Below are positions 29,796 to 46,943 of a DNA stretch of 64,000 nucleotides, one piece after another. Both the position numbers and the translations under genes were made by a program. Position 1 is the first letter of the stretch. Every line of letters starts with the position of its first letter. The stretch is taken from positions 3,374,501 through 3,438,500 of the forward strand of contig NZ_CP062253.1 of the NCBI RefSeq assembly GCF_014863585.1, read 5' to 3'. Origin of the DNA: Pseudomonas gozinkensis (GTDB lineage Bacteria > Pseudomonadota > Gammaproteobacteria > Pseudomonadales > Pseudomonadaceae). Under the pieces are notes generated by a model, which saw only the letters and a program-made list of their open reading frames with translations, was not told the DNA's origin and did no database searches.

Positions 29796-30088
29796 TTGAT
29801 AGGCCCTCAAACTGCGTGGTAAATCATTCCGTTGAAACCAGCCCACTTCAGGACAGGTTTAGCGTAGGAGTTTTTTGAAGATTTGCCAGAACAGGAACCG
29901 CCGTTTAGACGGACGAAATGACACACCAGGGCACGGCTTTTGGCCAGCATGGCTGAGGGTCGGGAAGGGCTCGTCGATTTTTGAAACGCAGGACCAGTCG
30001 GCGTCCTTGACCCGAAAGCACAAGACTTCACGCTCAAAAACCGGATAATGGCGGCCAATTTGTTTAGCCCGCTATTCTGGTAACCCGC
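29796..30088. promoter_or_regulatory. Divergent intergenic region between giant-adhesin operon and ycaO gene
   Basis: About 290 bases that must hold promoters for both the minus-strand surface-protein operon and the plus-strand OsmC/YcaO gene. It is A/T-richer than its surroundings. I see no clear sigma-54, Fur or dyad operator site and no small ORF worth calling. Confidence 0.5.
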
Positions 30089-32284
30089 ATGGAAATCAAG
30101 GTCAATTTTCTCGACAACCTCCGACTCGAAGCCAAGTTCGATGACTTCACGGTGGTGGCCGACCAACCGATCCGTTACAAGGGCGATGGCTCTGCACCGG
30201 GTCCGTTCGACTATTTCCTGGCGTCGTCGGCCTTGTGCGCGGCTTACTTCGTAAAGTTGTACTGCAGTACCCGCAACATCCCGACCGAAAACATTCGTCT
30301 GTCGCAGAACAACATTGTCGATCCGGAAAACCGCTACAACCAGATCTTCAAGATCCAGGTCGAGCTGCCGTCAGACATCTCCGAAAAGGATCGCCAGGGC
30401 ATCCTGCGCTCGATCGACCGTTGCACGGTGAAGAAGGTGGTGCAGGCCGGGCCGGAGTTCGTGATCGAGGAAGTCGAGAACCTCGACGCGGATGCCCAGG
30501 CCCTGCTGATGCCGGCTTCCACCTCCGGCGCGGGCACCTCCATTGCCGGCAAGGACCTGCCGCTGGAACAGACCATCGCCAACATGTCGGGGATTCTGGC
30601 CGACCTGGGCATGAAGATCGAAATCGCTTCGTGGCGCAACATCGTGCCCAACGTCTGGTCGCTGCACATCCGCGATGCCCAGTCGCCGATGTGCTTCACC
30701 AACGGCAAGGGTGCGACCAAAGAGGGCGCGCTGGCCTCGGCGCTGGGCGAGTTCATCGAGCGGTTGAACTGCAACTTCTTCTACAACGATCAGTTCTGGG
30801 GCGAAGACATCGCCAATGCCGAATTCGTGCATTACCCGGACGAGCGCTGGTTCAAGCCCGGCGCCAAGGATGAGCTGCCTGCGGAAATCCTCGACGAGTA
30901 TTGCCTGGGCATCTACAACCGCGATGGCGAACTGCGCGGCTCGCACCTGTACGACACCAACTCCGGCAATACTCAGCGCGGCATCTGCTCGCTGCCGTTC
31001 GTGCGCCAGTCGGACAACGAAGTCATTTACTTCCCGTCCAACCTGATCGAAAACCTGTTTCTCAGCAACGGCATGAGCGCCGGCAACACCCTGGCCGAAG
31101 CACAGGTGCAGTGCCTGTCGGAAATCTTCGAACGGGCGGTCAAGCGCGAAATCCTCGAAGGCGAAATGGCTCTGCCGGATGTGCCGCAAGAGGTGCTGGC
31201 GAAATACCCGGGCATCCTCGCCGGCATCCAGGCACTGGAAGAGCAGGGCTTCCCGGTGCTGGTCAAGGACGCGTCGCTGGGCGGTGAATTCCCGGTGATG
31301 TGCGTGACCTTGATGAACCCGCGCACCGGCGGCGTGTTCGCCTCGTTCGGCGCGCACCCGAGCTTCGAAGTGGCGCTGGAGCGCAGCCTCACCGAGTTGC
31401 TGCAGGGCCGCAGCTTTGAAGGCCTCAACGATCTGCCACAACCGACCTTCTCGGGCCAGGCCGTGACCGAACCGAACAATTTCGTCGAGCACTTCATCGA
31501 TTCCAGCGGCGTGGTGTCGTGGCGTTTCTTCAGCGCCAAGGCCGACTTCGAATTCGTCGAGTGGGACTTCTCCGGCAATGGCGAAAACTCCAACGCCGAA
31601 GAGGCCGCTACGCTGTTCGGCATCCTCGAAGACATGGGCAAGGAAGTCTACATGGCGGTCTACGAGCACATCGGCGCCAAGGCTTGCCGCATTCTGGTGC
31701 CGGACTATTCGGAGATTTATCCGGTAGAAGACCTGATCTGGGACAACACCAACAAAGCGCTGCAATTCCGTGCCGACATCCTCAACCTGCACAACCTGAG
31801 CAAAGTCGGCCTGCGCAATCTCGCCAAAGGCCTGGAACACAGCGAGCTGGACGATTACACCGACATCACCACGCTGATCGGCATCGAGTTCGACGACAAC
31901 ACGCCATGGGGCAAGTTGACCATCCTTGAACTGCGCCTGCAGATCTACCTCGCCTTGCAGAAGTACGAGCAGGCCAAGGATCTGGTCGAGGCCTTCCTGC
32001 AATACAACGACAACACCGTCGAGCGCGGCTTGTTCTATCAAGCGGTCAACGTCGTGCTGGAAATGGAGCTGGACGAGGATCTGGAGCTGGAAGACTACGA
32101 AGCCAACTTCCGTCGCATGTTCGGCGACGAGCGCATGGATGCGGCGATCGGCTCGGTCAACGGCAGCGTGCGCTTCTACGGCCTGACGCCGACCAGCATG
32201 AAGCTGGAAGGGCTGGATCGACACCTGCGCCTGATCGAGAGCTACAAGAAACTGCACGCGGCGCGGTCCAACTTCGCGGGTTGA
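30089..32284 (+). CDS. OsmC domain / YcaO domain fusion protein
   Basis: A 731-residue cytoplasmic protein. An N-terminal OsmC/Ohr-like fold covers roughly residues 1-140 (FDYFLASSALCAAYFVKLYC, CTVKKVV). A YcaO domain covers ~170-560 (NGKGATKEGALASALGEFIERL; AEAQVQCLSEIFERAVKRE, with its ATP-binding glutamates). A C-terminal TPR-like helical part follows (LRLQIYLALQKYEQAKDLVEAFL). E. coli YcaO (YcaO plus TPR) supports RimO-dependent beta-methylthiolation of ribosomal protein S12; this fused form is the usual Pseudomonas version. No RiPP genes adjoin it, so a housekeeping role is likelier than azoline synthesis. A clear terminator follows. Confidence 0.9.
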   Translation: MEIKVNFLDNLRLEAKFDDFTVVADQPIRYKGDGSAPGPFDYFLASSALCAAYFVKLYCSTRNIPTENIRLSQNNIVDPENRYNQIFKIQVELPSDISEKDRQGILRSIDRCTVKKVVQAGPEFVIEEVENLDADAQALLMPASTSGAGTSIAGKDLPLEQTIANMSGILADLGMKIEIASWRNIVPNVWSLHIRDAQSPMCFTNGKGATKEGALASALGEFIERLNCNFFYNDQFWGEDIANAEFVHYPDERWFKPGAKDELPAEILDEYCLGIYNRDGELRGSHLYDTNSGNTQRGICSLPFVRQSDNEVIYFPSNLIENLFLSNGMSAGNTLAEAQVQCLSEIFERAVKREILEGEMALPDVPQEVLAKYPGILAGIQALEEQGFPVLVKDASLGGEFPVMCVTLMNPRTGGVFASFGAHPSFEVALERSLTELLQGRSFEGLNDLPQPTFSGQAVTEPNNFVEHFIDSSGVVSWRFFSAKADFEFVEWDFSGNGENSNAEEAATLFGILEDMGKEVYMAVYEHIGAKACRILVPDYSEIYPVEDLIWDNTNKALQFRADILNLHNLSKVGLRNLAKGLEHSELDDYTDITTLIGIEFDDNTPWGKLTILELRLQIYLALQKYEQAKDLVEAFLQYNDNTVERGLFYQAVNVVLEMELDEDLELEDYEANFRRMFGDERMDAAIGSVNGSVRFYGLTPTSMKLEGLDRHLRLIESYKKLHAARSNFAG

Positions 32285-33731: not shown

Positions 33732-36137
33732 TTACGGCAGGGCGTACGCCATCACGTAGTCGCCGCGATCGGTCGACTGGCGAGCACCGCCGGCGGTGAT
33801 GACTACGTATTGCTTGCCGGTTTTCGGCGACACATAGGTCATCGGGCCGCCCTGGCTGCCGACCGGCAGACGTGCTTTCCAGACTTCTTCACCGTTGCCG
33901 CTGTTGAACGCGCGCAGGTAAAAGTCCTGGGTGCCGGCGATGAAGATCAGGCCGCCCTGGGTCGACAGCGTGCCGCCGAGGGTCGGCAGACCGATCTTGA
34001 TCGGCAGGTGCATGCGGATGCCGAGCGGGCCAGTGTCTTCAACGGTGCCGACCGGAACCTGCCAGGCGACTTTCTGGGTCTTCATGTCGATGGCGGTCAG
34101 GGTGCCGAACGGCGGCGCCTGACACGGAATACCGGCCACCGACAGGAAGCGGTTTTTGTTCACGGCATAAGGCGTGCCTTTCAGCGGCACGGCGCCCATG
34201 CCGGTGTTCAGCGCTTCGCCACCGGAGGTTGCCTGACCTTTGTTCTGCGACGGGATCATCTGAATCCACAGGCCCAGGCGCATGTCATTGACGAAGATGA
34301 AACCGTGCACCGGGTCAGTCGAGATGCTGCCCCAGTTCATGCCGCCCAGCGAACCCGGGAAACTCAGGGATTTGTCAGTGCCCGGCGCGGTGTACAGACC
34401 GTCGTAGCGCATCGACTTGAAATCGATCCGGCACAGCAACTGGTCGTACGGCGTGGCGCCCCACATGTCGGACTCGGTCAGGTGTTGAGCACCGATTTGC
34501 GGCATGCCGACCGATTTCGGCTGGGTTGGCGAGTAAGGTTCGTTTGGAATGTTCGACGCCTTGACCGGCACTTCTTTAACTTCGGTCAACGGTTTGCCAG
34601 TGGCGCGGTCGAGCACGTAAATCTGTCCGGCCTTGGTGCCGATCACCAGCGCCGGCACGGTTTTACCGTCCTTGGTGAAGTCGATCAGGCTTGGCTGCAT
34701 CGGCAGGTCGAAGTCCCAGAGGTCGTTGTGCACGGTCTGGTAGACCCACTTTTCTTCGCCGCTGTTGGCGTCCAGGGCCAGGATCGAGGCGCCGTAGGTA
34801 TGATCCAGCTTGCTGCGCTCGACACCATAGATATCAGTGGACGAACTGCCCATCGGCAGGAAAACGGTATTGGTCGCCGGGTCGTAGGACATCGGCGCCC
34901 AGCTGTTTGGGGTGCTGCGCACGTAGGTGCTGCCGTCTGCCGGTGCCTTTTTATCCTGCGGATTGCCCGGGTCGAATGCCCAGCGCATGGCGCCGGTCAT
35001 CACGTCGAAACCACGGATCACACCGCCCGGCATGTCGGTCTGCACGTTGTCGGCAACGCGACCGCCAACCACCACGGTGGTGCCGGCCATCAGCGGCGCG
35101 GAGGACAGTTGATAGTAGCTGTCCGGGACATCACCCAGACCGGCCTTCAGATCGACCTGGCCGTTGGTGCCGAAACCCTGGCAGAACTCGCCGGTGTCGG
35201 CATCGACCGCGATCAGGCGGGCGTCGATGGTGTTGGTCAGCAGACGGCGCGTGCAGTTGGCGACCGGTGCGACCGGGGTCTCGGCCACTGGCGAGTCAGC
35301 CGGTTTGGCGACGGCGGCGCTGGCGTCGAAATACGCCATGCCACGGCAACGCTGCCAGACTTTCGACTGGGCATTGATCGCGTTTTTCCAGAGTTCTTTA
35401 CCGGTGTCGGCATCCAGCGCGATCAGGTTGTTGTGCGGGGTGCAGATGAACACTTTGTTGCCGATCTGCAGTGGAGTCAGCTGGTCTTCCGCACCGTTGC
35501 CGTCACTCTCGGCGATGTCGCCGGTGTGGTAGGTCCAGGCGACTTTCAGCTTGTCGACGTTGCTGCGGTTGATCTGATCCAGCGCGGCGAAGCGGCTGCC
35601 ACCCTCGGTATTACCGTAGTGCGCCCAGTCTTTCTGCGCCTTTTCCGGCTCGACCGGCGTCAGGCCCGGACCAGTGCCGGTAGGGGCGACCGTCGGGTGC
35701 GCAACGAACATGTTGCCGGCAGCCACGGCCAGTCCAACCGCCAGAACAGCCGCAACGCCGTAAGCACCGCGACCTGCAACGTCACCATTGGCACGTTTGA
35801 GCAGCGGGTAGACCAGCGCGACAACCAGACCCACGGCGCTGAACATGAACAGGCGCGAGAACACCGGCCAGAACACCAGGCCCGCATCGCTCACGGCCCA
35901 GATGGCGGTCCCGACCAGAAACGCCGCAAACAGCCACGCACCGGCAACCTTGCGACAAACGATCAGCAGACCGGAAATGGCCATCGCCAGACCACCCACC
36001 AGGAAGTACCAGGAGCCTCCCAGGCTGACCAATTTCACACCGCCAGCGGCCAGTGCCAGGCCGAGGAGGGCGATGATCACGCCCAGCCCGACCAGAATGA
36101 ATGTTGATATGCCCGAGAGGCGTTGACTCTGCTTCAC
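33732..36137 (-). CDS. gcd: Membrane-bound PQQ-dependent glucose dehydrogenase
   Basis: An 801-residue quinoprotein that oxidises glucose to gluconolactone in the periplasm and reduces ubiquinone. Five N-terminal membrane helices (residues ~10-150) precede an eight-bladed propeller with family motifs WAHYGNTEGGSRFA, WTYHTGDIAE, the tryptophan-docking repeats, and a C-terminal GGPMTYVSPKTGKQYVV. The start is a GTG with GGGA eight bases upstream. It requires PQQ, whose genes are not here. It is transcribed before oprB, and a palindromic site lies upstream. Confidence 0.96.
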   Translation of the reverse strand: MKQSQRLSGISTFILVGLGVIIALLGLALAAGGVKLVSLGGSWYFLVGGLAMAISGLLIVCRKVAGAWLFAAFLVGTAIWAVSDAGLVFWPVFSRLFMFSAVGLVVALVYPLLKRANGDVAGRGAYGVAAVLAVGLAVAAGNMFVAHPTVAPTGTGPGLTPVEPEKAQKDWAHYGNTEGGSRFAALDQINRSNVDKLKVAWTYHTGDIAESDGNGAEDQLTPLQIGNKVFICTPHNNLIALDADTGKELWKNAINAQSKVWQRCRGMAYFDASAAVAKPADSPVAETPVAPVANCTRRLLTNTIDARLIAVDADTGEFCQGFGTNGQVDLKAGLGDVPDSYYQLSSAPLMAGTTVVVGGRVADNVQTDMPGGVIRGFDVMTGAMRWAFDPGNPQDKKAPADGSTYVRSTPNSWAPMSYDPATNTVFLPMGSSSTDIYGVERSKLDHTYGASILALDANSGEEKWVYQTVHNDLWDFDLPMQPSLIDFTKDGKTVPALVIGTKAGQIYVLDRATGKPLTEVKEVPVKASNIPNEPYSPTQPKSVGMPQIGAQHLTESDMWGATPYDQLLCRIDFKSMRYDGLYTAPGTDKSLSFPGSLGGMNWGSISTDPVHGFIFVNDMRLGLWIQMIPSQNKGQATSGGEALNTGMGAVPLKGTPYAVNKNRFLSVAGIPCQAPPFGTLTAIDMKTQKVAWQVPVGTVEDTGPLGIRMHLPIKIGLPTLGGTLSTQGGLIFIAGTQDFYLRAFNSGNGEEVWKARLPVGSQGGPMTYVSPKTGKQYVVITAGGARQSTDRGDYVMAYALP

Positions 36138-36171
36138 GTTGAATGTCCCGTTGAAATGAGGGGGGCATTAT

Positions 36172-36187
36172 ATAGTTAGGTAACTAT
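36172..36187. promoter_or_regulatory. Palindromic operator-like site upstream of gcd
   Basis: Perfect dyad ATAGTTA-GG-TAACTAT located 35 bases upstream of the gcd start, followed by another half-site TAGTTA at 36189-36194. The size and symmetry fit a MarR- or GntR-type repressor site, and the position would overlap the gcd promoter. No regulator gene for it is in the window. Confidence 0.4.
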
Positions 36188-36381
36188 CTAGTTAAATCAC
36201 TAAATCAGAATGAAGTGTAGTTTGCTGCTCAATGGCGCACCAGAACGAGGTCAGGCAACGCCAGTAGGCTTGGGAAGCGTGTTGAAACGTGAGCGAAAGT
36301 GTTTTTTTTTGCCAGGGAGGTCGGGATTTTTGACAGGTATGATCGGCGCAGGGACATAGGGAGTAGCGCCCCGGCGCCGCC
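36188..36381. other. Spacer between the gcd promoter and the RiPP-operon terminator
   Basis: The stretch upstream of gcd as far as the RiPP-operon terminator holds a run of ten T/G-rich bases and short open frames with no protein-like features. No RNA gene or repeat is recognised. It marks the left edge of the A/T-richer accessory region. Confidence 0.4.
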
Positions 36382-36421
36382 AAAAAAGACGAAGCCTCCT
36401 GTCCACGGACAGATGGCTTCG
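36382..36421 (-). terminator. Rho-independent terminator of the RiPP-like operon
   Basis: Read on the minus strand: a two-part stem CGAAGCC / GGCTTCG enclosing CTGTCC-GT-GGACAG, followed by TCTTTTTT. It lies about 90 bases after the stop of the PqqD-like gene and closes the minus-strand operon. Confidence 0.85.
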
Positions 36422-36511
36422 AGGCATTTCAGTGACTCATAAATGGGAAGAGATGCGCTTTGATGTTGCTACAAAACGTAGTCAGGTCGGATTTCGATGC
36501 AAGAAGGGTAT

Positions 36512-36772
36512 TCACACCTTCCAGGCCTGCTCGGATGGCACCAGTAGCTTGCAATCTATGCAGAGTGTCCAGAATGACTCTACTTCCGCGTCGAGAAAAC
36601 CTTCGCTACTGCACATATTCTGGAATGCCGTCAGGTCAACCGGATCGCTTGGTGATAGCTTCGAAATTATTTCGTAGCCAGAGTGGTTCAATTTGTAGAT
36701 TTTGAAATTGATCGGATCCAGAAAGCAGCGATCGTTATGGCGGGGGATCAGGTTTGTATTGATCTGGTACAC
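36512..36772 (-). CDS. PqqD-like RiPP recognition protein (86 aa)
   Basis: A small protein with the PqqD/RRE winged-helix pattern: an N-terminal beta-strand region (NDRCFLDPINFKIYKLNHSG), then helices (YEIISKLSP; LTAFQNMCSSEGF; VESFWTLCIDCKLLVP). PqqD-family proteins bind the leader of a precursor peptide and present it to a radical SAM enzyme. The gene lies 12 bases after the second radical SAM gene and is last in the operon. Standalone RREs of this size are typical of PQQ- and mycofactocin-like pathways. The assignment rests on pattern and context only. Confidence 0.68.
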   Translation of the reverse strand: MYQINTNLIPRHNDRCFLDPINFKIYKLNHSGYEIISKLSPSDPVDLTAFQNMCSSEGFLDAEVESFWTLCIDCKLLVPSEQAWKV

Positions 36773-36784
36773 GTGATAATCCTT

Positions 36785-38017
36785 CTAGAAGAAATTAACA
36801 AGGTCGCGAGACAGGTTGTTATTGATGAGTCTGTATAACGCATCCTCGGAATCCAGCAGCGCATTTTCGTATTGGTAAAACACATCGGGATGAATATTGT
36901 TTTTTAGCTGAAAAAGTGCCCATTCATTTGCAACAAACTCCTTCTCGTGATCATTGCTCTTGCGAGGGTCGATTTCCAGTGTGTCAGTGGCGATATGACC
37001 TATTTCATGCAAGGTAGTAAAAAAGCGTACAACCTCCGGAGTTTTTTCATCCAGGACAATGTGAAACTTCTCATTGAATTTGTAGACGATAGCGTTTGCC
37101 CCAAGTTCTGAGGAGGTCGTTTCGATCGTCGAAATTCCATAAACCTGCGAGAGACTGGATATCGTTTTCTGAAAAAAAGACCTGATTAACTTGTTCGTGT
37201 GACGCGTATAAATATCAGAGATACCTTCCTGGTAAATATTACCGATTTTCGGCTTCGCTTCATCCGTTGAAACACCACCATCCGCAGATATCACAATGTC
37301 CGGACTGACGCGTACCTTTTCGAGTGGTGCAGTTGAACCGAGGTCGTAGCCAGGGCAGATTATCCAATCGGTCTTATCGTATCGAACATTAAAGTCATGA
37401 GCTTTCTTCAAGACTGATTTGATTTCATCCGCATTCAAAGGCGTGCAGCTTTTTACAGGTGAGAACTCCAGATAAAATGTCAGCTTTACGGAAAAGGCAT
37501 TCAATTCAAGACAGAGTTTGAATAGCTCACTTATCTCACCCGCATTGGCACTATGAATACACAAGGCAACGTTAAGATTAAGCCCGGCCGAGACTATGCG
37601 CTTGGCTGCGTCGCACACTTCTTCAAAGTTTCCGGGACGCCTGATACGGTCGTGCGTTGCGGAAGTAGCACCATCCAGACTTACCTGAATGGTCGGAATG
37701 CCGGCAGCCAAAATATCCTGAATGATTGCATCGTTCAGATTTACTCCCGTGCAGGCAACCAACGGCAGCATGTTCTTTGATTTGATGAGCTGTAATATTT
37801 TCAAGAATTCCGGATGCAGGACTGGATCACCACCCGCGATGATTATTGTATACACCCCATGGAATTGTGCTTCGCTGATAATGGCTTCAATTTTTTCGTA
37901 AGCCAGACGAAATTTATTGATTTCACCTTTCTGCACAATAAAACAATGAGGACACTTGAGATAACAGTCATATGTAATGTAGAGACTGAGAGAATAGGGG
38001 AGGTAATTTTTTCTCAT
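36785..38017 (-). CDS. Radical SAM enzyme fused to an ImmA/IrrE-like metallopeptidase
   Basis: A 410-residue protein. The radical SAM cluster CYLKCPHC has cysteines at 18, 22 and 25 (CX3CX2C), and AGGDPVLH serves as the SAM-binding glycine motif. A short twitch/SPASM-like segment lacking cysteines follows near 240-275 (ISADGGVSTDEAKPKIGNIY). The C-terminal ~110 residues carry a zinc-peptidase motif HEIGH at 337-341, then EKEFVANEWALFQL near 358-371, which matches the ExEAN helix of ImmA/IrrE peptidases. Such a fusion could both modify and cut a precursor peptide. The start overlaps the MFS gene stop (ATGA). Confidence 0.8.
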   Translation of the reverse strand: MRKNYLPYSLSLYITYDCYLKCPHCFIVQKGEINKFRLAYEKIEAIISEAQFHGVYTIIIAGGDPVLHPEFLKILQLIKSKNMLPLVACTGVNLNDAIIQDILAAGIPTIQVSLDGATSATHDRIRRPGNFEEVCDAAKRIVSAGLNLNVALCIHSANAGEISELFKLCLELNAFSVKLTFYLEFSPVKSCTPLNADEIKSVLKKAHDFNVRYDKTDWIICPGYDLGSTAPLEKVRVSPDIVISADGGVSTDEAKPKIGNIYQEGISDIYTRHTNKLIRSFFQKTISSLSQVYGISTIETTSSELGANAIVYKFNEKFHIVLDEKTPEVVRFFTTLHEIGHIATDTLEIDPRKSNDHEKEFVANEWALFQLKNNIHPDVFYQYENALLDSEDALYRLINNNLSRDLVNFF

Positions 38018-39249
38018 CCCATGATCTCTTTGCTTGCGTAGCGGAATGCCAGAAGGGAAATCAGTGACAAGGCAGAAGCTATGCTCAGTATCGAGAAAAT
38101 TGTATTTGAACCAAGAGATTCGGAAAACAATCCCGAAAGATAGGTTGCGACGCCTGTGATGGATGCTCGAAAAAAAGACGCTGTCGCCAAGGTAGTTGTT
38201 CGATCAGCACGACCGTTCTCGATATTGATATTGTAGATGTAAGAAGTCAGCGAAGGGTACATTCCCCGAACCATCTGATGGAAACAAATGGCCGCGACAA
38301 TCGAGAACACATTCTTATCATCCAGAATCAATAGTGATGCTGCGAGGAAGAGCGAGAAAAATATCAGCTCAGGAAGACCAGTGGTAAGCAATCGCTTTTT
38401 AATATGGCTAAACACATATGCGCTTGCGGCGGAGAGGAGAAAAAGAGCTGAAAAAATCCCACCTACTTGATAGTACGGGACTTGAGCGGCCAATAGCAGC
38501 GGCTGGTAAAAATTGAACGCCACCCTGAGTGTCGCAAAAATGACGGCAGCGCAAAGAATAAAGTTGATCATGTACCACGATGAAAATGCATTCAGGAAGC
38601 CAGACTTCATAATGTTCAGGTACGATCGGCGGTCAGGCGCTCCCTCATGATGAAGATTTGTTGGCTTGGGCTCCTCGACATAAAGGGTGATGATGATGGT
38701 TGCCAGGCTCAGCAATATGATGTCCACGACCATGGGAAGGGCCAGATCTATCTCTGCCAATACGCCGCCAAGGATCGCAGCCACTGCCGCAGCGAACAGG
38801 GAAATGCTCGTCGACCTGGCCATTGCTTCGTGAAATTTATCTTCGGCTTCTCTTGATGCGTAGACATCGAACATCATCGACTGGAAGGAACTACCGGTAA
38901 CAGCCGTGCCCACAGAAAACAACAGAGCAACAACAACGATAGGGATTTCATTTTTCCATAACAGCACTGACAACATAGCCAGGATGTAGACCACGTTGCC
39001 GACTACCAATGCTGTTTTTCTTCCTATTTTATCCGCTAACGCCCCGGCGGGAATTTCAATCAGCCAAAGAAAAAGAAAGCACAGCGCAAGCATCGTACTG
39101 TATTGTGCAAAAGTGTACCCTGCATAGGACAAATAAAAGATGGTAAGTACCGGCGCCAAAACCGATTCGACTCCGAAGAGCGATTGCAGATAGCTGAGGC
39201 GTCGCCATTTGTTTAGTACTGGATTATTATTCAAAGATATTTTTCCCAT
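38014..39249 (-). CDS. MFS transporter, putative peptide-product exporter
   Basis: A 411-residue membrane protein with about 12 hydrophobic helices and the MFS signature between helices 2 and 3 (GALADKIGRKTALVVG). The frame extends upstream into the radical SAM gene; the ATG at 39249 is chosen, overlapping that gene by 23 bases. Sitting between the two modification enzymes and ending with a 4-base overlap to the next gene, it most likely exports the mature product or gives self-protection. The substrate is unknown. Confidence 0.8.
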   Translation of the reverse strand: MGKISLNNNPVLNKWRRLSYLQSLFGVESVLAPVLTIFYLSYAGYTFAQYSTMLALCFLFLWLIEIPAGALADKIGRKTALVVGNVVYILAMLSVLLWKNEIPIVVVALLFSVGTAVTGSSFQSMMFDVYASREAEDKFHEAMARSTSISLFAAAVAAILGGVLAEIDLALPMVVDIILLSLATIIITLYVEEPKPTNLHHEGAPDRRSYLNIMKSGFLNAFSSWYMINFILCAAVIFATLRVAFNFYQPLLLAAQVPYYQVGGIFSALFLLSAASAYVFSHIKKRLLTTGLPELIFFSLFLAASLLILDDKNVFSIVAAICFHQMVRGMYPSLTSYIYNINIENGRADRTTTLATASFFRASITGVATYLSGLFSESLGSNTIFSILSIASALSLISLLAFRYASKEIMG

Positions 39250-40225
39250 AGACGTTGTATGCCAGGTGACACCCATGCCGATGCACTTCCGAGAAGTTCT
39301 TTGCATCCTCGTAATTACTCGAAGCTAGTAGTTGACCGCGCCACTTGAGAAAAATTGGATCTTCGTTCCACACCCTTTGGATACTTTCAGAATCGACCAT
39401 CGGCCGTGTTCGATCCTTCTCGGTGAGCATGTCGCACGCCGATAAAGAAAAATCGCTATTGATTACAATCGACGTCGTTGCTGCGCCACATCCAAAAGTA
39501 GAAGTGGCTGCGGTTTTTTTGTTATGCCATTTCACTTCATTGAAGAAAGGGCCGGCGACTATTTTTATGGAAGGATATTCTTGATGAAGATTCCAGAGTT
39601 CCGAACTGACCAAGCTACTGATCTGTGGGGTAAGACTATGACTATCGTCCAGGCCAGCGCCTGTTCCTGTTGGGACGAAAGCGCTGAACTTGATTTCTTG
39701 TACGCCAAGTCCATATGCGAGCTCAAAAATTTTCCGAGCGCTTTGATGGTTTTTCTTTGTTATCGTGATGGACAGGGTGACATTCATACCTGCCTCAACA
39801 AGTAAACCCACGCCGGTCATAGCCTTGGAAAAGTTTCCATCCCCCCTGACGCCGTCATTCAGTTGAGCAGTGTGCCCTTCAATACTGACTTGATAATTCA
39901 CAGCACCAGAGGCTTTCAATTTAGCAACGAGGGCGGGGGTAATAAGGGTGCCATTGGTCACAATCAACAAGATCATCCCTTTTTCGGTAATGCGCTTGGC
40001 GATAATGGACAAATCTTTACGCACCATAGGTTCGCCACCAAGCAGAGTAATACTTCGAACCTGGTTGGCGGCGAGAAAGTCAATGGTGTCGAATATGCGC
40101 GGCAAATCGTTCTCTTGATAGGTGTAGTCTTCAAGATAACAGTGTGTGCAACGGATATTACACTTACTGGTGATGTACCATTTTACAAAAATGGGAAAGC
40201 CCAACGAGCAGACTTGGCTGGTCAT
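39227..40225 (-). CDS. Radical SAM/SPASM peptide-maturase
   Basis: A 332-residue enzyme. The radical SAM cluster is CNIRCTHC with cysteines at 22, 26 and 29; the GGEP motif is at 63-66. The C-terminal SPASM/twitch part has CGA near 245, SACDML near 260 and a late cysteine in HRHGCHLAY, giving ligands for an auxiliary cluster. SPASM enzymes commonly install thioether or C-C crosslinks or oxidise residues in ribosomal peptides. It is the first enzyme gene after the 55-residue precursor, 80 bases downstream across a strong hairpin. The family is clear; the exact reaction is unknown. Confidence 0.85.
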   Translation of the reverse strand: MTSQVCSLGFPIFVKWYITSKCNIRCTHCYLEDYTYQENDLPRIFDTIDFLAANQVRSITLLGGEPMVRKDLSIIAKRITEKGMILLIVTNGTLITPALVAKLKASGAVNYQVSIEGHTAQLNDGVRGDGNFSKAMTGVGLLVEAGMNVTLSITITKKNHQSARKIFELAYGLGVQEIKFSAFVPTGTGAGLDDSHSLTPQISSLVSSELWNLHQEYPSIKIVAGPFFNEVKWHNKKTAATSTFGCGAATTSIVINSDFSLSACDMLTEKDRTRPMVDSESIQRVWNEDPIFLKWRGQLLASSNYEDAKNFSEVHRHGCHLAYNVYGKNIFE

Positions 40226-40255
40226 TACGAATCCTTGTGATGAGGCATGTCTGAT

Positions 40256-40290
40256 GATGCGAGCGACATGGGTTCCATATCGCTCGCATC
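40256..40290 (-). terminator. Strong hairpin between precursor and first radical SAM gene
   Basis: An 11-bp perfect stem GATGCGAGCGA / TCGCTCGCATC with a 13-base loop that itself contains ATGG/CCAT. No T tract follows on the minus strand. In peptide-modification operons such a stem often lets the precursor be expressed more strongly than the enzymes, by partial termination or mRNA protection (inference). Confidence 0.6.
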
Positions 40291-40305
40291 ATTTGATGCA
40301 AAGCG

Positions 40306-40473
40306 TTACATCAAGATCGCCTTGGTAGTACTTAGGCAACCCTCAATATTGATCATCTCCAGCGTTGGTGCAGGAAGTTTTTTCTTCCTCGCGTCAGGCT
40401 GAACTTGATCAATTTTTTGCTCCAGATGCTTCTTCTCGGCACTAACAGAGGAGGCACGATTTTCCATAGCCAT
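40306..40473 (-). CDS. Putative RiPP precursor peptide, 55 aa
   Basis: A short, hydrophilic, Lys/Glu/Gln-rich leader (from AMENRASSVS to DARKKK) is followed by LPAPTLEM and a C-terminal candidate core INIEGCLSTTKAILM with a single cysteine. The ATG at 40473 has GGAG five bases upstream; an upstream frame to 40512 lacks a ribosome site. It is the first gene of the operon, behind a sigma-54-type promoter and before the radical SAM genes. I recognise no known precursor class (no PqqA E-x3-Y, no mycofactocin IDGxCGVY ending). The call rests on size, composition and context. Confidence 0.72.
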   Translation of the reverse strand: MAMENRASSVSAEKKHLEQKIDQVQPDARKKKLPAPTLEMINIEGCLSTTKAILM

Positions 40474-40526
40474 ACTATCTCCAATCTTGATGTATGCATG
40501 CTCAAGCGACATGCGCCAATGACATT

Positions 40527-40542
40527 AGCAATGCATGTGCCA
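40527..40542 (-). promoter_or_regulatory. Sigma-54 (-24/-12) promoter for the RiPP-like operon
   Basis: Read on the minus strand: TGGCACATGCATTGCT. This matches the RpoN consensus TGGCACG-N4-TTGCW at all defined positions except one (A for G at position 7), with the correct GG-to-GC spacing. It would start transcription near 40516, leaving a ~43-base leader before the precursor ATG. Sigma-54 promoters need an activator AAA+ protein; none is encoded in this window. Confidence 0.7.
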
Positions 40543-41063
40543 ATTCAAACAAATTTAGTAAGTTGTTGTTTTTTAATGGACGACAAAAAAAATAGAGCGG
40601 GTCAATCCATACTGAATTTCATTTGTTTATGTGCACATTCTGGAGCAAGTGGATCCAATTTGGTGCGATAAGTATTCGGGATTGTCCTGCACCAAGGGCG
40701 CCGGCGACCAAGTCCTGGGCCGACATCACGATGCCCGGATCCAGATGCTCATGCGAGGGTTTGGCGTTGCGCCGCAGGCGATTCGAAGAGATGCCAGGCG
40801 GATCGTTCCCCAATCACAGACTTGACGGTATTCACGCGAGCCAGCGCGATGCGCTTCAATGCCCAAATGGTTGCCTGCTCCATCGCCAACGAGAATCCCA
40901 CAATGCGCAGCTTATGGAAGACCCTCGAGGGAGCCTCCCGTAATCTCCAAAAGCATCATAGATAGCGCCCGATGTCGAAGAGGGGGGAAGGGCAAGATAC
41001 TTTGTCAAAAGCTGCGGCTTACGCTTTAATTTCAACTTGCCACTCACCCTATCGGCGATCTTG
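40543..41063. other. Intergenic stretch between the RiPP-operon promoter and the GAF kinase
   Basis: About 520 bases with no gene I can support. The part next to the promoter is A/T-rich. A short plus-strand frame at 40849-40965 (38 codons, MRFNAQMVACSIANENP start) looks mildly protein-like and continues open upstream, so it may be a relic 3' end or a small gene. Other short frames on both strands lack ribosome sites and family resemblance. Activator sites for the sigma-54 promoter would be expected here but cannot be identified by eye. Confidence 0.4.
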
Positions 41064-42281
41064 ATGCCTTATCCGTCTGACTTTTCACACGACATCAGTG
41101 CGGTTGCCAGGATCGAGGCCGTCCCGCTTATTCTCAATATGGTGAAGCATGTTACCGGCATGCGCTTTGCGGCAATTGCGCGTGTCACCGAGACGAAATG
41201 GGTGGCCTGCGCAGTCGATGATTCTATTGATTTTGGGCTGATACCTGGCGGCGAGTTGGTGCTGGAAACGACGATTTGTCACGAAATTCGTCAGCACCGT
41301 CAGCCCGTTGTATTTCAGAATGCCAGTGAACATCCGGTGTACTCAACCCACCACACCCCTCGGGCATACGGCCTGGAAAGCTACGTCTCCATTCCTATCA
41401 CCAGGACAAACGGAGATTTTTTCGGAACGCTCTGTGCTATCGATGAGGTTCCGGCACATTTTGATGAAGATGCGGTGTGCAAAACGCTAACGCTCTTTGC
41501 CCAGCTAATAGCAGTGCAACTAGACGTTTTGGCGGATCTTGATACCAAGACGATTGAACTGGCCGATGCAACCGAGACAGGCATTGTCCGGGAACAATTC
41601 ATTGCCGTACTGGGACATGATCTCCGTTCGCCACTGAGCGCTATCAGAATGAGCGCCGATCTGCTGGAGGCCAAGCTTCCCGCCGGTCGCGAGCAGAAGC
41701 TTGCCACTGCAATACGACAAAGCTCGCAGCGGATGAATATCTTGATTGAAGATGTCCTGGATTTTTCTCGAGGAAAGCTGGGGGGAGGCATTCCGGTCAA
41801 ACGAACTCTAGTAGATAACCTGGGTGACATTTTTATTGCCGTCATAAATGAAATCAGGACGAGTCATCCCCACGTCAAAATCCTTCAAGACGTGATCATT
41901 TCACCTGGGATCTTCTGTGATGCCGGGAGAATGGGACAATTGCTTTCAAACCTATTGGGTAATGCAGTGGCTCATGGAGCGCGTGATCACCCGATAGAGG
42001 TGATCGCGTGCATGCAAGAAAATCATATAGTCCTGTCAGTGAAGAACCATGGCCCGGAAATCCCCGACGTTTTGTTACCGTTACTGTTCCAGCCGTTTAA
42101 AAGGTCTGCAGGCGGTGGTCGAGGAGAGGGGCTGGGACTCGGTTTGTATATCGCATCTCAGATCGTAACGGGTCATAACGGGACGCTATCGGTAACCTCT
42201 ACGTCAGATGCCGGCACGTGTTTCGTAGCAAGGTTCCCTGGCACCCTGGAGTGGACGCAAGCGGACCTGAATGTCCTTTAA
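41064..42281 (+). CDS. GAF-domain sensor histidine kinase
   Basis: A 405-residue cytoplasmic kinase. The N-terminal GAF domain spans ~10-165 (GMRFAAIARVTETKWVACAV through FFGTLCAIDEVPAHF). The HisKA box is FIAVLGHDLRSPLSAIR, with the phospho-histidine in GHD. The HATPase has LLSNLLGNAVAHG, a slightly unusual G1 region (NHGPEIPDVLLP) and GEGLGLGLYI. No membrane segment or receiver is present, so it senses an internal signal and needs a partner regulator elsewhere. The ATG at 41064 is preferred to an upstream TTG at 41037. It is divergent from the RiPP-like operon; a regulatory link is possible but unproven. Confidence 0.85.
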   Translation: MPYPSDFSHDISAVARIEAVPLILNMVKHVTGMRFAAIARVTETKWVACAVDDSIDFGLIPGGELVLETTICHEIRQHRQPVVFQNASEHPVYSTHHTPRAYGLESYVSIPITRTNGDFFGTLCAIDEVPAHFDEDAVCKTLTLFAQLIAVQLDVLADLDTKTIELADATETGIVREQFIAVLGHDLRSPLSAIRMSADLLEAKLPAGREQKLATAIRQSSQRMNILIEDVLDFSRGKLGGGIPVKRTLVDNLGDIFIAVINEIRTSHPHVKILQDVIISPGIFCDAGRMGQLLSNLLGNAVAHGARDHPIEVIACMQENHIVLSVKNHGPEIPDVLLPLLFQPFKRSAGGGRGEGLGLGLYIASQIVTGHNGTLSVTSTSDAGTCFVARFPGTLEWTQADLNVL

Positions 42282-42353
42282 ATGATCTTATTGCCCGACT
42301 ATTTCATGGCCGCCTCGGGCAATCGATTACCTGCAATCCGGTGAAATTCCAGC

Positions 42354-42385
42354 TAACTCGACTAAATGGTCGTTTAGTTGAGTTA
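42354..42385. promoter_or_regulatory. Inverted repeat upstream of the cupin gene
   Basis: Arms TAACTCGACTAAA and TTTAGTTGAGTTA (13 bp, one mismatch) around a 6-base centre TGGTCG, ending 34 bases before the cupin ATG. The inner ACTAAA-N6-TTTAGT resembles TetR-family operators. It could also form an RNA hairpin near the 5' end. Confidence 0.45.
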
Positions 42386-42419
42386 TTACAGACTGTATTT
42401 AGAATCAATGGAGCAGGTC

Positions 42420-42935
42420 ATGAATTCACGTCCGATGACTGCGTCGAGCCTCATTGCAACACTAGCGCTTGAGCCTCACATCGAAGGCGGATTCTTTCGC
42501 AGAACGTACCAGGCCGATCATCGGGACAGGATCGGAACTGAAGGTGGTCAACGATTTCTGATGACGTCGATCTACTACTTGCTCACCGAGGAATCGCCGG
42601 TGGGACAGTTCCATTTCAACCAGTCTGACATCCTGCATTATTTCCATTTGGGCGACGCGATCGAGTACAACCTGATTCATGCCGACGGCTCACTGCAGAC
42701 TTTGGTGATGGGCAGCGATGTTTTGGCCGGACAGCATCTGCAATTGCACGTACCGGGCGGAATCTGGAAAGCATCCAGATTGCTGAGCGGTTCGAACAGT
42801 TTTGGTTTGATCAGCGAAGCGGTTTCACCGGGTTTTGATTTCGCGGACATGGAAATGGGTAACCGGCAGAAACTCACAGCACAGTATCCGCAGCATCGAG
42901 CTCTGATTGAAAAGTTGACGCGTGACGAAGGTTGA
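42420..42935 (+). CDS. Cupin-domain protein, DUF985 family
   Basis: A 171-residue single-cupin protein. Family features are LEPHIEGGFFRRTYQ near the N-terminus, TSIYYLLTEESPVGQFHFNQSD with a metal-type histidine, the second strand WHY-like ILHYFHLGDAIEYNLIHADG, and VPGGIWKASRL. DUF985 proteins are RmlC-like beta-barrels of unsettled function. The ATG at 42420 has GGAG six bases upstream; in-frame ATGs further upstream lack such a site. A palindromic site precedes it. Confidence 0.85.
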   Translation: MNSRPMTASSLIATLALEPHIEGGFFRRTYQADHRDRIGTEGGQRFLMTSIYYLLTEESPVGQFHFNQSDILHYFHLGDAIEYNLIHADGSLQTLVMGSDVLAGQHLQLHVPGGIWKASRLLSGSNSFGLISEAVSPGFDFADMEMGNRQKLTAQYPQHRALIEKLTRDEG

Positions 42936-43148
42936 AAGCTGCGCATTTCAAATGGATGGATCAGGAGGTACCAAGGATCAGGTCCTTTGAGAACGATGCT
43001 GTAGATTGAAACGGCGTACGCAACCGGGCTGGCTTTGTAATATTTTGTTACGTGTAATGTATATTATGTTAAACGACATGTCGTAGATTTTCACGAGCTG
43101 CCTAAGACGCTGATTCGACAAACCCTCTTCTGGCGGCCACATCATTAA
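42936..43148. other. Gap between cupin gene and integrase remnant
   Basis: A/T-rich non-coding stretch; it contains the imperfect element ttacgtgtaatgtatattatgtt and no protein-like frame. No tRNA or clear attachment site is visible. Confidence 0.3.
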
Positions 43149-43325
43149 TACTCGGCCCGACCGCCCCCCCGGTACCGCAGCCTGACAGATGCGCAACTAC
43201 AGGTCATTCGTGCACTGATTCGCTCAGGCGCCGTGGAGAATCCATTTCCGGAACGACTGCAGTTGCGCAACTGGCTGATGATTGAATTGCTACTGGAGAC
43301 TGGTATTCGTCGTGAGAGCTTTTGA
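43149..43325 (+). pseudogene. Tyrosine recombinase (phage-type integrase) fragment
   Basis: A short open stretch encodes LTDAQLQVIRALI followed by RNWLMIELLLETGIRRES, which matches the segment of tyrosine recombinases up to and including the first catalytic arginine (TGIRRGE). The frame begins after a stop, lacks a start codon and ends at TGA right after GIRRESF; the HxxR and Tyr parts of the enzyme are absent. It is therefore an internal scrap of a decayed integrase and supports past insertion of mobile DNA in this region. Confidence 0.7.
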
Positions 43326-43515
43326 GACTCTCAGCATAAATGATCGCGAACATGATCCTAGCGACCGCGCACTGAAGAGACTGCGCTCAAAACATCTGGC
43401 TCAACCGGAGTTATTGCCTTCACTTTTGAAATCTCGCGAGGTAAAAGCATCAAAGAAAATTAAGACAGCGAGATCCAACTCTAAGTCAGAACTCGCTAGC
43501 ACTTACCAACGGCGG

Positions 43516-44421
43516 TCAATCCCCAAAAATCTTGGTACATACGTCGGAAGAAGACTCAATAGCGTTCTGTGTTAAATATTTCTCTTCTCTTCGATATACT
43601 ATATCGCTCAGATTCGATACTTCACCCGAATCCTTATCGTACGACCACAACAGCAAGGACCTTAGCGGGTGATTGGCAATTGCTTGCTTCGAGTTCGGCA
43701 GCATATTCGAATTGGCTTCAAATTCCTTTCCAAGATAATGGTTCACGCTGTTAGCCAATACGTCTGAGAGGAGAGTCATGGACGAATTCTCGCATACGAT
43801 CTCAACTTTTAGGCCTGGATGGCTTGGTAAGTTATCTGCCGTTGCCTTCGATGAGCAATGAAGAAGCTCGCCGGTTGCTTTGTCGTAGACTTTGAACTCA
43901 CGCTTCAATTCACCACTTTTCAGCAAGGACAGGTAGTCATCGAGCTCAATGAAGAGCTTTTTAATCACACCTTGATCCAGATTATCAGAGACCACCACCA
44001 ACTCTACGCCCTTCTCTCTGAATTTGTGGACGGACGCAAGAACTTTAAGCATCAGTCCAATAAACAGCTTTGCATGCAGCAGCTCTTTGCTCGAACGATT
44101 GCCTCCCCTCCCATCGCAGAACTCAGACTGGTATAGCCCCTCGACATATATAGCTTCATACATCCATGGAATTTTCAGGTCAGTGAAAGCTTGGAAAATC
44201 ACCCTTCGGGCTTGCTCTTGATTCGGCAGTTCGGTTATGTGAACTTTACCGGGCCCTTCAATATCAGAAAGTCTCTTTTCGATTTCCGTCTTGAATATTT
44301 CCAGGTACATGTCTGGAATGAGATATCCTGCAATGACTCCAAGTTCGCCAAGATAGCGCTCTCGCTTATCAGCATACCCCTTCCCGCCAGACTCATCGAT
44401 GAATATGTAATGCCTTTTCAT
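43516..44421 (-). CDS. DUF3800 domain protein
   Basis: A 301-residue protein opening with YIFIDESGGKG, the acidic signature of DUF3800 proteins (RNase H-like fold, putative metal-dependent nuclease). Conserved later parts include VVVSDNLDQG, with a second acidic residue, and SMTLLSDVLANSVNHYLG. The ATG at 44421 has GGAG six bases upstream; the frame could run to 44484. DUF3800 genes are frequent in mobile and defence-rich regions, which fits the integrase scrap next door. Activity is inferred from the family only. Confidence 0.78.
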   Translation of the reverse strand: MKRHYIFIDESGGKGYADKRERYLGELGVIAGYLIPDMYLEIFKTEIEKRLSDIEGPGKVHITELPNQEQARRVIFQAFTDLKIPWMYEAIYVEGLYQSEFCDGRGGNRSSKELLHAKLFIGLMLKVLASVHKFREKGVELVVVSDNLDQGVIKKLFIELDDYLSLLKSGELKREFKVYDKATGELLHCSSKATADNLPSHPGLKVEIVCENSSMTLLSDVLANSVNHYLGKEFEANSNMLPNSKQAIANHPLRSLLLWSYDKDSGEVSNLSDIVYRREEKYLTQNAIESSSDVCTKIFGD

Positions 44422-44582
44422 AATTTTCTCCATGAAAGCATGCATGCAGGCTGCTCGGGAAATCCCACGATAACTTCGGAACATGCCCAGTAGAAGGCAC
44501 TAATGGGCTGATTGGTCCAGCCACCACAGGCTCAAGAAGGTCTGTCAGCGTAGCTGTACGGCAACCTCTCGTTGGTGTCGGC

Positions 44583-45692
44583 TTAGCCCCCCTTTCCCAT
44601 CACCTTCATGATCCATTCATATGCCGCCACCGCCTTGCCCACAACATCGCCCGAGGTATTCACGAATTCCAGGGTCGATTTGATGAGGGTTAGCTGATTT
44701 CGGTTGATGCTGGTAGTGGCCACCTCTTTCCCTGGCAATAGGCCTTCAAGGTCCTTGAACAACTTGTCGCGGCTTTGAACCCAATGCTTGGCCTGTTCCG
44801 TGACGGATGGGATAAAGAGTCCACCTCGTTGAAGCTCAATCAGTGGTGCTCGACGGGTGTCTAGCTCTTCCGCAAGCTTCAACAAGCGTGTGATCTGCTC
44901 GTCTCTGAGAAATCTCTCAGACTCTTTGAAGGAGAACCGCGCGAGGACATTCTCCAGTATCTGTCGGCCCTGGCAGCCTTGAGCCACGTAGGACACCACC
45001 ATCCGATGGTCATCGTCGTTACCACTATGCCGCCGAAGCACCTGATCCAATATTCTGGATATCTGACTCGTCTTTGCACTGATGCTGTTGACGAGATCTT
45101 GTATTCGTTCCAAGGCAGGGGGCAGCAAGTCTGCCATGCTCGAAATTTGTTTTTTGAAATTCGGGGTGCCGTCCACAATTATGCGAATTTTCTGAAGGAG
45201 CTCTATGAGATGCTCCATTGCCCAGTCCTTTTCCAATGAAAGGACGATGGATTCGTCAACCCCGTGCACGACGAGGCACAGGCAAGGCAGCTCGTCAGGT
45301 TTTACCTGAAAGATATCCATAAACTCCGGAACGAAACGGGCCGTCCCTCGTGCCGAAGTCTTTGCTACATGAGAGCGGTGGTGTTTCCATTCATCAGTCA
45401 GGTCTCGAAAACTTGTAGTGTCACGTAAAGGGAACGCGACGCCTGAAAAAGCCCCCACCTCACCAAGTCCCCGGTCGAGTCCCACAGCTGAGCTTCCAGT
45501 AGGGTCAAGCAAGATGAAGGCTACTTCGGTACCAAGCACCGCGTCCGCTGCTGAAAATTCTAGGATTAAGTCCTCCACCTTTTGCTGGTTTTGCAATTCC
45601 GGCGCCAGCATGATGCACATGATGCGTTGGCTTTCTTGTTTGACATGGAACCAGTCAACGAGCTCCTGGGGCGACGCGGCGGTGATCAGCAT
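44583..45692 (-). CDS. Hypothetical protein, 369 aa
   Basis: A soluble protein I do not recognise. The N-terminal ~180 residues look alpha/beta (MLITAASPQELVDWF; VAFILLDPTGSSAVG; LPCLCLVVHGVDESIVL). The C-terminal half is largely helical with coiled-coil-like stretches (PPALERIQDLVNSISAKTS; EQITRLLKLAEELDTRR), ending VVGKAVAAYEWIMKVMGKGG. The start has AAAGGA at good spacing. It lies upstream of the DUF3800 gene on the same strand, 161 bases away. It may belong to a stress or defence cassette, but this is only context. Confidence 0.65.
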   Translation of the reverse strand: MLITAASPQELVDWFHVKQESQRIMCIMLAPELQNQQKVEDLILEFSAADAVLGTEVAFILLDPTGSSAVGLDRGLGEVGAFSGVAFPLRDTTSFRDLTDEWKHHRSHVAKTSARGTARFVPEFMDIFQVKPDELPCLCLVVHGVDESIVLSLEKDWAMEHLIELLQKIRIIVDGTPNFKKQISSMADLLPPALERIQDLVNSISAKTSQISRILDQVLRRHSGNDDDHRMVVSYVAQGCQGRQILENVLARFSFKESERFLRDEQITRLLKLAEELDTRRAPLIELQRGGLFIPSVTEQAKHWVQSRDKLFKDLEGLLPGKEVATTSINRNQLTLIKSTLEFVNTSGDVVGKAVAAYEWIMKVMGKGG

Positions 45693-46073
45693 TGGTTTTC
45701 CTTTCTAATGCACAGTCAAATTTATAGTGTTTGATTCAAGGTGGTCAGGGCCACGCATTCGTTGAACTGGATGTTCAACACATGATCGCCATGGGCCGAA
45801 CTGGCGGAAGTTTTCGATTTTCAATGCCGAGCGCTGTCCCCATCCTGGTTCAGTGGCAGGGAGCGAGCTTTTGCAGCGCAATCCTGGCAGGCATCCTCCT
45901 TGGGCATGCTAGCTATATGCCACGAAACACTGCAGAAGGCTACTCGATCACACCGATCGCTTGCGGGGAGTCAAATGCCATTTGATCTTTAAGTATTTGA
46001 AGATACCGTCGATATCGTTTGTGTTGATCCTTTTACTTAGGCCCCGAACACCGAGAAATAAGGCCCTGCAAAA
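45693..46073. other. Intergenic region between hypothetical genes
   Basis: About 380 bases between two divergently transcribed genes. A plus-strand 84-codon frame (45731-45985) lacks a convincing ribosome site and any family resemblance, so I do not call it. The region presumably carries both promoters. Confidence 0.35.
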
Positions 46074-46667
46074 ATGGCAAGAAAAAAATCGAAGACGAGC
46101 ACATCGTCGACAATGAAGCCAGCGTCTCTCACTCCCATAGAAAAAGCCAAGCTACAAAATTATCGCAACAAAATGGCAGCTGTGTGGCTCGCTATTACTT
46201 TCGTGTGGTTCGCGGGTGCCTTGCTTACCTTGGTAAACGCATCTGAAATTTTTGCTCGAGCCAACAAGCTCGATAACGCTTTTCAGATTGGATATGCAGC
46301 CATCACTATTGCGTTTATGGCTTATAGAGTGCGCTCCAGAAAGCTAATAGTCTCGTCCCCCACATTCACTCAGGACATGGACACTAGCATCCATAAAGCA
46401 AAGAAATTCAATAATATAGAGCTACTGAAAGGCACAATTGCCTTCGGCCTGATCTGGATTCCGGCGTTGCATTTTTCAGGCTTGCTAGATCCAGTGTTTA
46501 TCTACTTCGGTATCTCCGCTTCCTCCGTCACAAATACTGCAGTTCAATGGCTAACCAGCGCGTTTGCATATCTGGCGAGCAACGCCCTGGCGGGCATCAT
46601 CGGCGGTATCGCTTATGACCGCTTTAAGCGCAAACCCGAATCATCCAGCATTGATGGTTACGAATAA
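46074..46667 (+). CDS. Hypothetical membrane protein, 197 aa
   Basis: A basic, Ser/Thr/Lys-rich N-terminus (~35 residues) precedes four predicted membrane helices: two near 35-60 and 68-85, two near 118-140 and 150-180 (AVQWLTSAFAYLASNALAGIIGG). The ATG follows CCCTGCAAAA with no strong ribosome site. I do not recognise the family. It stands alone in the accessory region. Confidence 0.6.
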   Translation: MARKKSKTSTSSTMKPASLTPIEKAKLQNYRNKMAAVWLAITFVWFAGALLTLVNASEIFARANKLDNAFQIGYAAITIAFMAYRVRSRKLIVSSPTFTQDMDTSIHKAKKFNNIELLKGTIAFGLIWIPALHFSGLLDPVFIYFGISASSVTNTAVQWLTSAFAYLASNALAGIIGGIAYDRFKRKPESSSIDGYE

Positions 46668-46733
46668 GCGTTGCTTATTATTCTGTTCGCCCGCCGCACT
46701 GCTGATTTCGCCAATCCCAGCAGCGTCCACTGC

Positions 46734-46943
46734 TCATGCACAGGAGCGGTGGACGACTCCAGATTGTGTAGAAAAAATTAATGGATTCCTGAGAAAGCGC
46801 CACTCCTGCTCCAGCATGTTCTGAACCAAAGGGAGGCTCCCCCTACCCTTCAGCCACTCCAGGACTACATGTTGTCTCTCATACTCGTTGAGTTTGTCCC
46901 ATTCCTTTGCGACCGTCTCCTCGATTGCAATTACTGAGGAACG
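46734..46943 (-). pseudogene. Possible coding relic (~65 codons, no start)
   Basis: A minus-strand frame ending at TGA (46734-46736) reads protein-like: VIAIEETVAKEWDKLNEYE then RQHVVLEWLKGRGSLPLVQN. It has amphipathic, charged, helical character. No ATG, GTG or TTG with a ribosome site precedes it, and a stop lies upstream near 46985. It could be the 3' end of a truncated gene at the island's right boundary. The rest of 46668-47021 shows no other gene. Confidence 0.35.

Follow-up and report, generated by a model that had tools for sequence, protein, structure and literature searches.

To our knowledge, modification of a ribosomally synthesised and post-translationally modified peptide (RiPP) and cleavage of its leader are usually carried out by separate proteins. 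The closest described systems, those for mycofactocin and pyrroloquinoline quinone (PQQ), combine a short precursor modified at its C-terminus, a standalone RiPP recognition element (RRE), a radical S-adenosylmethionine (SAM) enzyme of the twitch or SPASM type and a dedicated peptidase, as is generally understood and as excerpts of PMC8326336 describe. Also related are SkfB and SuiB, the maturases of sporulation killing factor and streptide, the first of which has a twitch domain (excerpts of PMC8326336). Here we describe an operon on the minus strand of a 64,000-nucleotide stretch of the Pseudomonas gozinkensis genome (a 6.56-Mb single contig), referred to throughout as the window. Within positions 36382-40542, five closely spaced genes run from 40473 down to 36512 and are followed by a terminator hairpin; they encode a short precursor peptide, a radical SAM enzyme (rSAM1), a major facilitator superfamily (MFS) transporter, a second radical SAM enzyme with a fused zincin-like domain (rSAM2) and a predicted RRE. 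The operon is very probably a RiPP pathway, and we put at roughly 0.85 the probability of the proposal in full, in which the ~4 kb five-gene cassette is self-contained and either mobile or repeatedly lost.

Compared with the mycofactocin and PQQ systems, the window cassette has two radical SAM enzymes and an MFS transporter, and its precursor has a core with a Cys and contains no Tyr. The peptidase-like domain is fused to rSAM2 and is of the HExxH type, whereas MftE is a creatininase (excerpts of PMC10885120). The cassette has neither a glycosyltransferase nor a dehydrogenase, and the NCBIfam cut-offs for MftC and PqqE are not reached (PqqE equivalog: 59.7 and 72.3 bits, cut-off 381). No MftA model was among the Pfam and NCBIfam matches of 13 precursor proteins, so the original prediction that the logic resembles PQQ or mycofactocin synthesis while the precursor matches neither holds. 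The SkfB and SuiB systems resemble the cassette in rSAM1 by profile and in rSAM2 by fold, but here the RRE is a separate protein, rSAM2 lacks a conserved auxiliary Cys set and carries the zincin-like domain, and the precursors are unrelated.

The precursor peptide and its operon

In Burkholderia territorii (locus L007) the five genes recur in identical order, and the peptide open reading frame (ORF) there ends INVEGCLSSSSVLG, compared with INIEGCLSTTKAILM in the window. The corresponding C-termini are VHVEGCLSSSNA at locus L025, ISVEGCLSSSNVLGF at L026, IPVDGCLSSLNAF at L027 and EFEVIPVEGCLSSSNVLGF at L064, and the core consensus across loci is [IV]x[IV][ED]GCLS. The full gene order is present in five of the six loci whose context was read (the window, L007, L025, L026 and L027, hereafter the intact loci), the sixth, L064, being a decayed copy. 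A protein search with the window and L007 precursors gave 13 proteins, the window's own included (alignment A3); all of them have E, G, C, L and S at the same places in the core, and the leaders are variable. In the five intact loci G, C, L and S are likewise invariant, each of these residues being written with two or three codons, and the core Cys is 6-9 residues away from the C-terminus. Because the core residues are fixed while their codons change synonymously, selection acts on the peptide; judged from these alignments, the 55-residue precursor is a real gene, and its core is quite likely the site of modification.

Two findings had been named that would speak against the short ORF, homologous operons lacking it and a lack of conservation in frame among relatives. 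Instead, rSAM1 is preceded by an ORF carrying the core in 6/6 loci with readable context, the decayed one among them, and the core is kept in frame in the 13 proteins, with synonymous changes at the five loci. In a six-frame translation of the fetched DNA (1,040,692 codons, overlapping loci being counted more than once), the motif [IV].[IV][ED]GCLS occurred in five precursor genes only. Precursor P0031 and the rSAM2 relative P0008 are on contigs of equal size (3495354), as are precursor P0034 and the rSAM2 relative P0010 (567404).

Table 1. Features of the operon, with positions in the window
Feature	Position	Strand	Description and basis
Precursor peptide gene	40306..40473	-	55 amino acids, ATG start, GGAG upstream; begins MAMENR, ends INIEGCLSTTKAILM
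Conserved core codons, INIEGCLS	40330..40353	-	Residues 41-48, probable modification site; codon and protein conservation
Hairpin between precursor and rSAM1	40254..40292	-	18-bp stem, 3-nucleotide loop; z -5.9, 0/300 shuffles as good
rSAM1	39227..40225	-	332 amino acids, radical SAM with twitch-like three-Cys C-terminal site; profile matches, alignment
MFS transporter	38014..39306	-	430 amino acids by longest ORF, true start uncertain; PF07690 80.7 bits, cut-off 33.4
rSAM2	36785..38017	-	410 amino acids; radical SAM core, a twitch region that has degenerated and lacks any conserved Cys set, and a zincin-like domain resembling M78 at the C-terminus; profiles, alignment, model
HEIGH zinc-binding motif of rSAM2	36995..37009	-	Residues 337-341; probable third ligand Glu360 downstream; alignment
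Standalone RRE	36512..36772	-	86 amino acids, GTG start; predicted fold, Foldseek
Intrinsic terminator hairpin closing the operon	36390..36421	-	-22 kcal/mol, z -4.1; then UCUUUUUU

The five minus-strand ORFs were confirmed in their place, and so was the terminator, by folding against shuffles (0/200 as good); a U-rich sequence follows directly 3', and this hairpin is absent from the list given by a simple terminator scan. The stop codon of the MFS gene and the start codon of rSAM2 overlap as ATGA. MFS relatives in the other four intact loci are 34-42% identical to the window protein, and its start is uncertain because they align from residue 31, 11, 6 and 1 in L007, L025, L026 and L027, respectively. 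A hairpin is found at the same position behind the precursor in these four loci (z -1.1, -4.2, -2.0 and -4.4), with unrelated sequences, and that of L025 is followed by a T run and is terminator-like. These hairpins are probably leaky terminators or stabilisers that give more precursor than enzyme. That every intact cassette has a hairpin there, though of unrelated sequence, suggests a selected role in the precursor-to-enzyme ratio. No riboswitch or known RNA of Rfam was found in 36100-41100 at E <= 1.

The radical SAM enzymes and the recognition element

Both radical SAM enzymes match PF04055 well above its cut-off of 29.5 bits (rSAM1 76.3, rSAM2 74.7), and the cysteines of the CxxxCxxC motif are present in all alignment rows that have letters there (28/28 for rSAM1, 18/18 for rSAM2). 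Across the operon proteins, the only curated Pfam cut-offs passed were those for generic radical SAM, Fer4_12 and MFS, and no NCBIfam cut-off was reached by either radical SAM enzyme among the best 25 of 82 and the best 25 of 65 matches.

A SPASM domain has seven C-terminal cysteines holding two auxiliary clusters, and a twitch domain has the motif CX9-15GX4C and a later Cys. rSAM1 has three conserved C-terminal cysteines, at 246, 264 and 319 (27/27, 27/27 and 26/27), rather than seven; their spacing, C246-X12-F-X4-C264 and then C319, fits the twitch motif, but with Phe in place of Gly in the window protein. The prediction of a SPASM radical SAM enzyme was thus right as to the radical SAM part, and a three-Cys twitch-like site takes the place of the SPASM domain. 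By sequence profile rSAM1 is nearest to SkfB, and its second-best NCBIfam model among the best 25 matches is the mycofactocin maturase MftC (residues 8-322, 115 bits against a cut-off of 265). Relatives of rSAM1 that are 39-46% identical (P0049-P0062) occur in Bacillus, a cyanobacterium and metagenomes; the contig of P0049 has the same size (119452) as that of the rSAM2 relative P0015, and therefore the pair of enzymes extends beyond the loci read. A reading of rSAM1 or rSAM2 as a prokaryotic viperin, acting in defence, was rejected, since rSAM1 scores 56.2 bits against the viperin cut-off of 180 and the PADLOC pVip matches of both proteins are confined to the radical SAM core.

In rSAM2, the radical SAM part is closest by fold to maturases of the SkfB/SuiB type in the predicted structure, and the CxxxCxxC motif suggests that it is an active radical enzyme. 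Its C-terminal part resembles ImmA/IrrE (M78) in having HExxH and a downstream E..N.W, but is fused to a radical SAM enzyme. H337, E338, H341, E360 and N364 are present in 19/19 rows of alignment A6, so that HExxH and a downstream Glu ligand, as expected of M78, are found in every row, and PF06114 (M78) matches 16/19 members at E <= 1 (best 3.4e-4). The metallopeptidase that had been read as built into the second radical SAM enzyme is backed by these residues and weak matches. The partial protein P0017 was omitted from A6, and P0018-P0022 (62-77 bits, 41-43% coverage) from alignment A1. Cys153 of rSAM2, which is not a cluster ligand, is conserved in 18/19 rows within the radical SAM core and may be a hydrogen-atom donor or a structural residue.

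The 86-residue protein showed the three-strand, three-helix winged-helix fold of an RRE in its predicted structure (predicted local distance difference test score 87.6). Ranks 1-10 of a Foldseek search were lasso B1 and MccB entries (E 0.04-0.6), and entries of TigE, NisB, MibB, MadB and McbB ranked high by VIA-align. Although the fold is like that of the lasso B1, MccB and TigE recognition elements, the partner enzymes differ, and no RRE was among the matches of sequence-profile searches of the PDB and of Pfam. The protein had no family at E <= 1 in NCBIfam or Pfam, and no PqqD Pfam model was found for it or its four relatives; what had been called a PqqD-like RRE therefore keeps its fold and loses its membership of the PqqD family. 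Each of the five intact cassettes has a protein at the position of the RRE.

Distribution and surroundings of the cassette

A search for rSAM1 in 398 genomes of the family to which the L007 genome belongs found it in four (L007, L025, L026 and L027), all with the complete set. In the genus of genome G670 (L026/L027), an intact rSAM1 is present in 2/32 genomes and the lrp-like gene that adjoins the cassette in 31/32. The loci around this gene were obtained for 12 genomes: two are intact carriers (L052 and L056), one holds an RRE remnant (L058), one lies within the decayed copy L064 (L062), and eight are clean, with no match to a cassette protein within 1.5-kb flanks. In 9/10 of the non-carrier loci the lrp-like gene adjoins a TonB-receptor-like gene; we take both names from the translations. 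A functional link between the cassette and the TonB-receptor gene beside L026/L027 was rejected, since that gene also lies beside lrp in these 9/10 other loci of the genus. Homology of the non-carrier sites to L026 ends within a few bases of 6433, just past lrp. In the closest three sites (L053, L054 and L055) it begins again at position 10486, where the RRE gene ends (stop at 10500), so that L026 differs from these by ~4.05 kb that span precursor to RRE.

The L058 remnant of the RRE gene (1273-1460) is in two pieces (E 1e-7). In the decayed copy L064 (3200-6030) the precursor is kept, the MFS gene is open, rSAM1 is interrupted and shortened, and rSAM2 matches residues 1-233 of 423; no RRE was found there at E <= 0.01. 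Across this genus, then, the cassette behaves as one unit, which a genome carries intact, carries in decayed form or lacks; an older acquisition followed by losses explains this no less well than a recent insertion. Found in two species that are sisters of G670, the decayed copy and what is left of the RRE gene point to repeated loss of the cassette.

Elsewhere the cassette is rare, and its few carriers include bacteria that are only distantly related. rSAM2 was found in 1/95 relatives, in 1/398 genomes of the window's genus and in 1/65 species of the L007 genus, and rSAM1 in 1/398 of the window's phylum, 1/399 of the L007 order and 1/58 of the L025 genus; each single finding was a locus already known. 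In the wide scans (398-399 genomes) no more than the best 4-5 candidates of each genome were scored, and broken copies such as L064 fall below the limit. Relatives of the precursor and rSAM2 occur in several other Burkholderia species, so the cassette varies between strains. It follows what we take to be a metK-like gene at L007 and lies between presumed flagellar-type genes at L025, names that we take from the translations. Plasmid and phage collections gave no close match at the limits used or at 80% query coverage, and viral contigs gave nothing useful for the cassette proteins. Loci L008-L016 (9/10 loci) and L028-L039 (12/12), with 21-31% identity mostly in the radical SAM core, were left aside.

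The stretch from 36 to 47 kb of the window has a G+C content of 44-51% per kb, with 45.8% in the operon and 59.5% in the whole window, which suggests acquisition. Within it the operon adjoins a quinoprotein dehydrogenase gene, and positions 36000-47000 also hold genes for a GAF histidine kinase (41037-42281) and a DUF985 cupin (42378-42935) and three long ORFs without a Pfam match at 1e-5 (43516-44484, 44583-45692 and 46947-47981). The dehydrogenase, kinase and cupin genes were rejected as parts of the system, not being seen beside the other cassettes; the kinase-cupin flank had partial matches only, in 7/23 other genomes. Outside this stretch, a 3798-residue ORF at 18450-29846 with DUF4347, cadherin-like and Big_9 repeats is probably a giant adhesin, and 30089-32284 encodes a 731-residue YcaO protein with YcaO_C and an N-terminal OsmC domain, which we presume to be an ordinary conserved gene unlinked to the operon.

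Proposed pathway and alternative readings

In the pathway that we propose, precursor would be made in excess over the enzymes because the hairpin separates its gene from rSAM1. The RRE would bind the variable leader and present the C-terminal core, I-x-I/V-E/D-G-C-L-S, to rSAM1, which would use two clusters, one cleaving SAM and an auxiliary one that only three cysteines hold. Since that auxiliary site would have three Cys ligands, the peptide's single Cys could bind its open iron site, and there may be joined to a nearby carbon as a thioether or be otherwise oxidised; we consider a Cys thioether as the core modification less likely than not. rSAM2 would carry out a second radical step with its SAM-cleaving cluster alone, its fused zincin-like domain would probably remove the leader once the core is modified, and the MFS protein would export a short single-Cys peptide. 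This two-radical-enzyme route matches no named class that we found. With a little less than even odds, we suggest a new RiPP class: a mobile five-gene cassette would yield a short secreted peptide with one Cys, and a single bifunctional protein of the radical SAM-zincin type would physically tie leader removal to the radical modification, so that cleavage has to wait for the radical step.

A pathway of the sactipeptide or ranthipeptide type, in which rSAM1 makes one thioether at the core Cys while rSAM2 is mainly the leader peptidase and its radical SAM part serves in docking or at a second site, is a credible if somewhat improbable alternative. It would account for the single invariant core Cys, for the three-Cys auxiliary site of rSAM1 and for its proximity to SkfB, whose twitch-domain structure is discussed with the sactisynthases in excerpts of PMC8326336. 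However, rSAM1 scores far under the cut-offs of the NCBIfam maturase models (StsB 93 against 625, PapB 80 against 340), and the intact CxxxCxxC motif of rSAM2 argues for a radical enzyme that is itself active. Known sactipeptides, moreover, usually have several cysteines.

It is unlikely that the C-terminus of the precursor is cut out to give a small redox cofactor, as in PQQ or mycofactocin synthesis, even though the mycofactocin part list also consists of a precursor, an RRE, a radical SAM enzyme and a peptidase, rSAM1 has MftC as its second-best model and the core Cys lies near the C-terminus. The MftC score is under the cut-off, and all five intact cassettes have an MFS gene; a dehydrogenase is not encoded by any of the five genes. 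Both PqqA and MftA use a Tyr, which the window precursor does not have. Use of the precursor Tyr is described for mycofactocin in excerpts of PMC8326336. A role for the short ORF as nothing more than a regulatory leader peptide, with the enzymes acting on some other small molecule, is very improbable, for although each of the five intact loci has a hairpin behind the ORF, as in attenuation, selection acts on the C-terminal amino acids while codons change synonymously, every intact cassette has a protein in the RRE position, and the core is kept in 13 proteins whereas the hairpin sequences are unrelated.

Several points weigh against our proposal of a self-contained RiPP cassette. The cassette has no known product, and a Cys beside Leu and Ser does not define a thioether. 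At L064 the broken rSAM1, the short rSAM2 and the lack of a detectable RRE indicate that the pathway is dispensable there. The precursor starts in L025 and L026 are uncertain, and the L027 precursor and the L026 RRE were located by position and motif, not by tblastn. The hairpin behind the precursor is not better than shuffles in L007 (43/300 as good) and modestly so in L026 (10/300). The window rSAM2 scores 12.6 bits against the PF06114 gathering cut-off of 22; its model is confident, but the fold-match rows span residues 1-336, i.e., the radical SAM part; and it has no conserved auxiliary Cys set that would point to one type of reaction.

Full-text literature searches gave no paper describing such a cluster in its title or abstract opening, though the 2022 JACS atlas of radical SAM RiPPs may list the family. 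A review of RiPP proteases (PMC10885120) contains no occurrence of M78, and no such cluster appears in excerpts of an RRE-discovery paper (PMC12710340) and a Pseudomonas pan-genome paper (PMC8719888). The original statement that no named class with this set was known agrees with these searches and with the curated class models, none of which was matched. Usual gene-cluster rules would miss the product, since none of the curated models for precursors, RREs or maturases scored above its cut-off.

The locus combines, in a single conserved protein, a radical SAM enzyme with a metallopeptidase-like domain. In sister species the five-gene, ~4 kb pathway is naturally present or absent, which marks its edges and would allow it to be tested whole in Escherichia coli. 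Its product, probably a short single-Cys peptide made by a Pseudomonas host and by Burkholderia relatives, could be a signal, a metal binder or an antibiotic.

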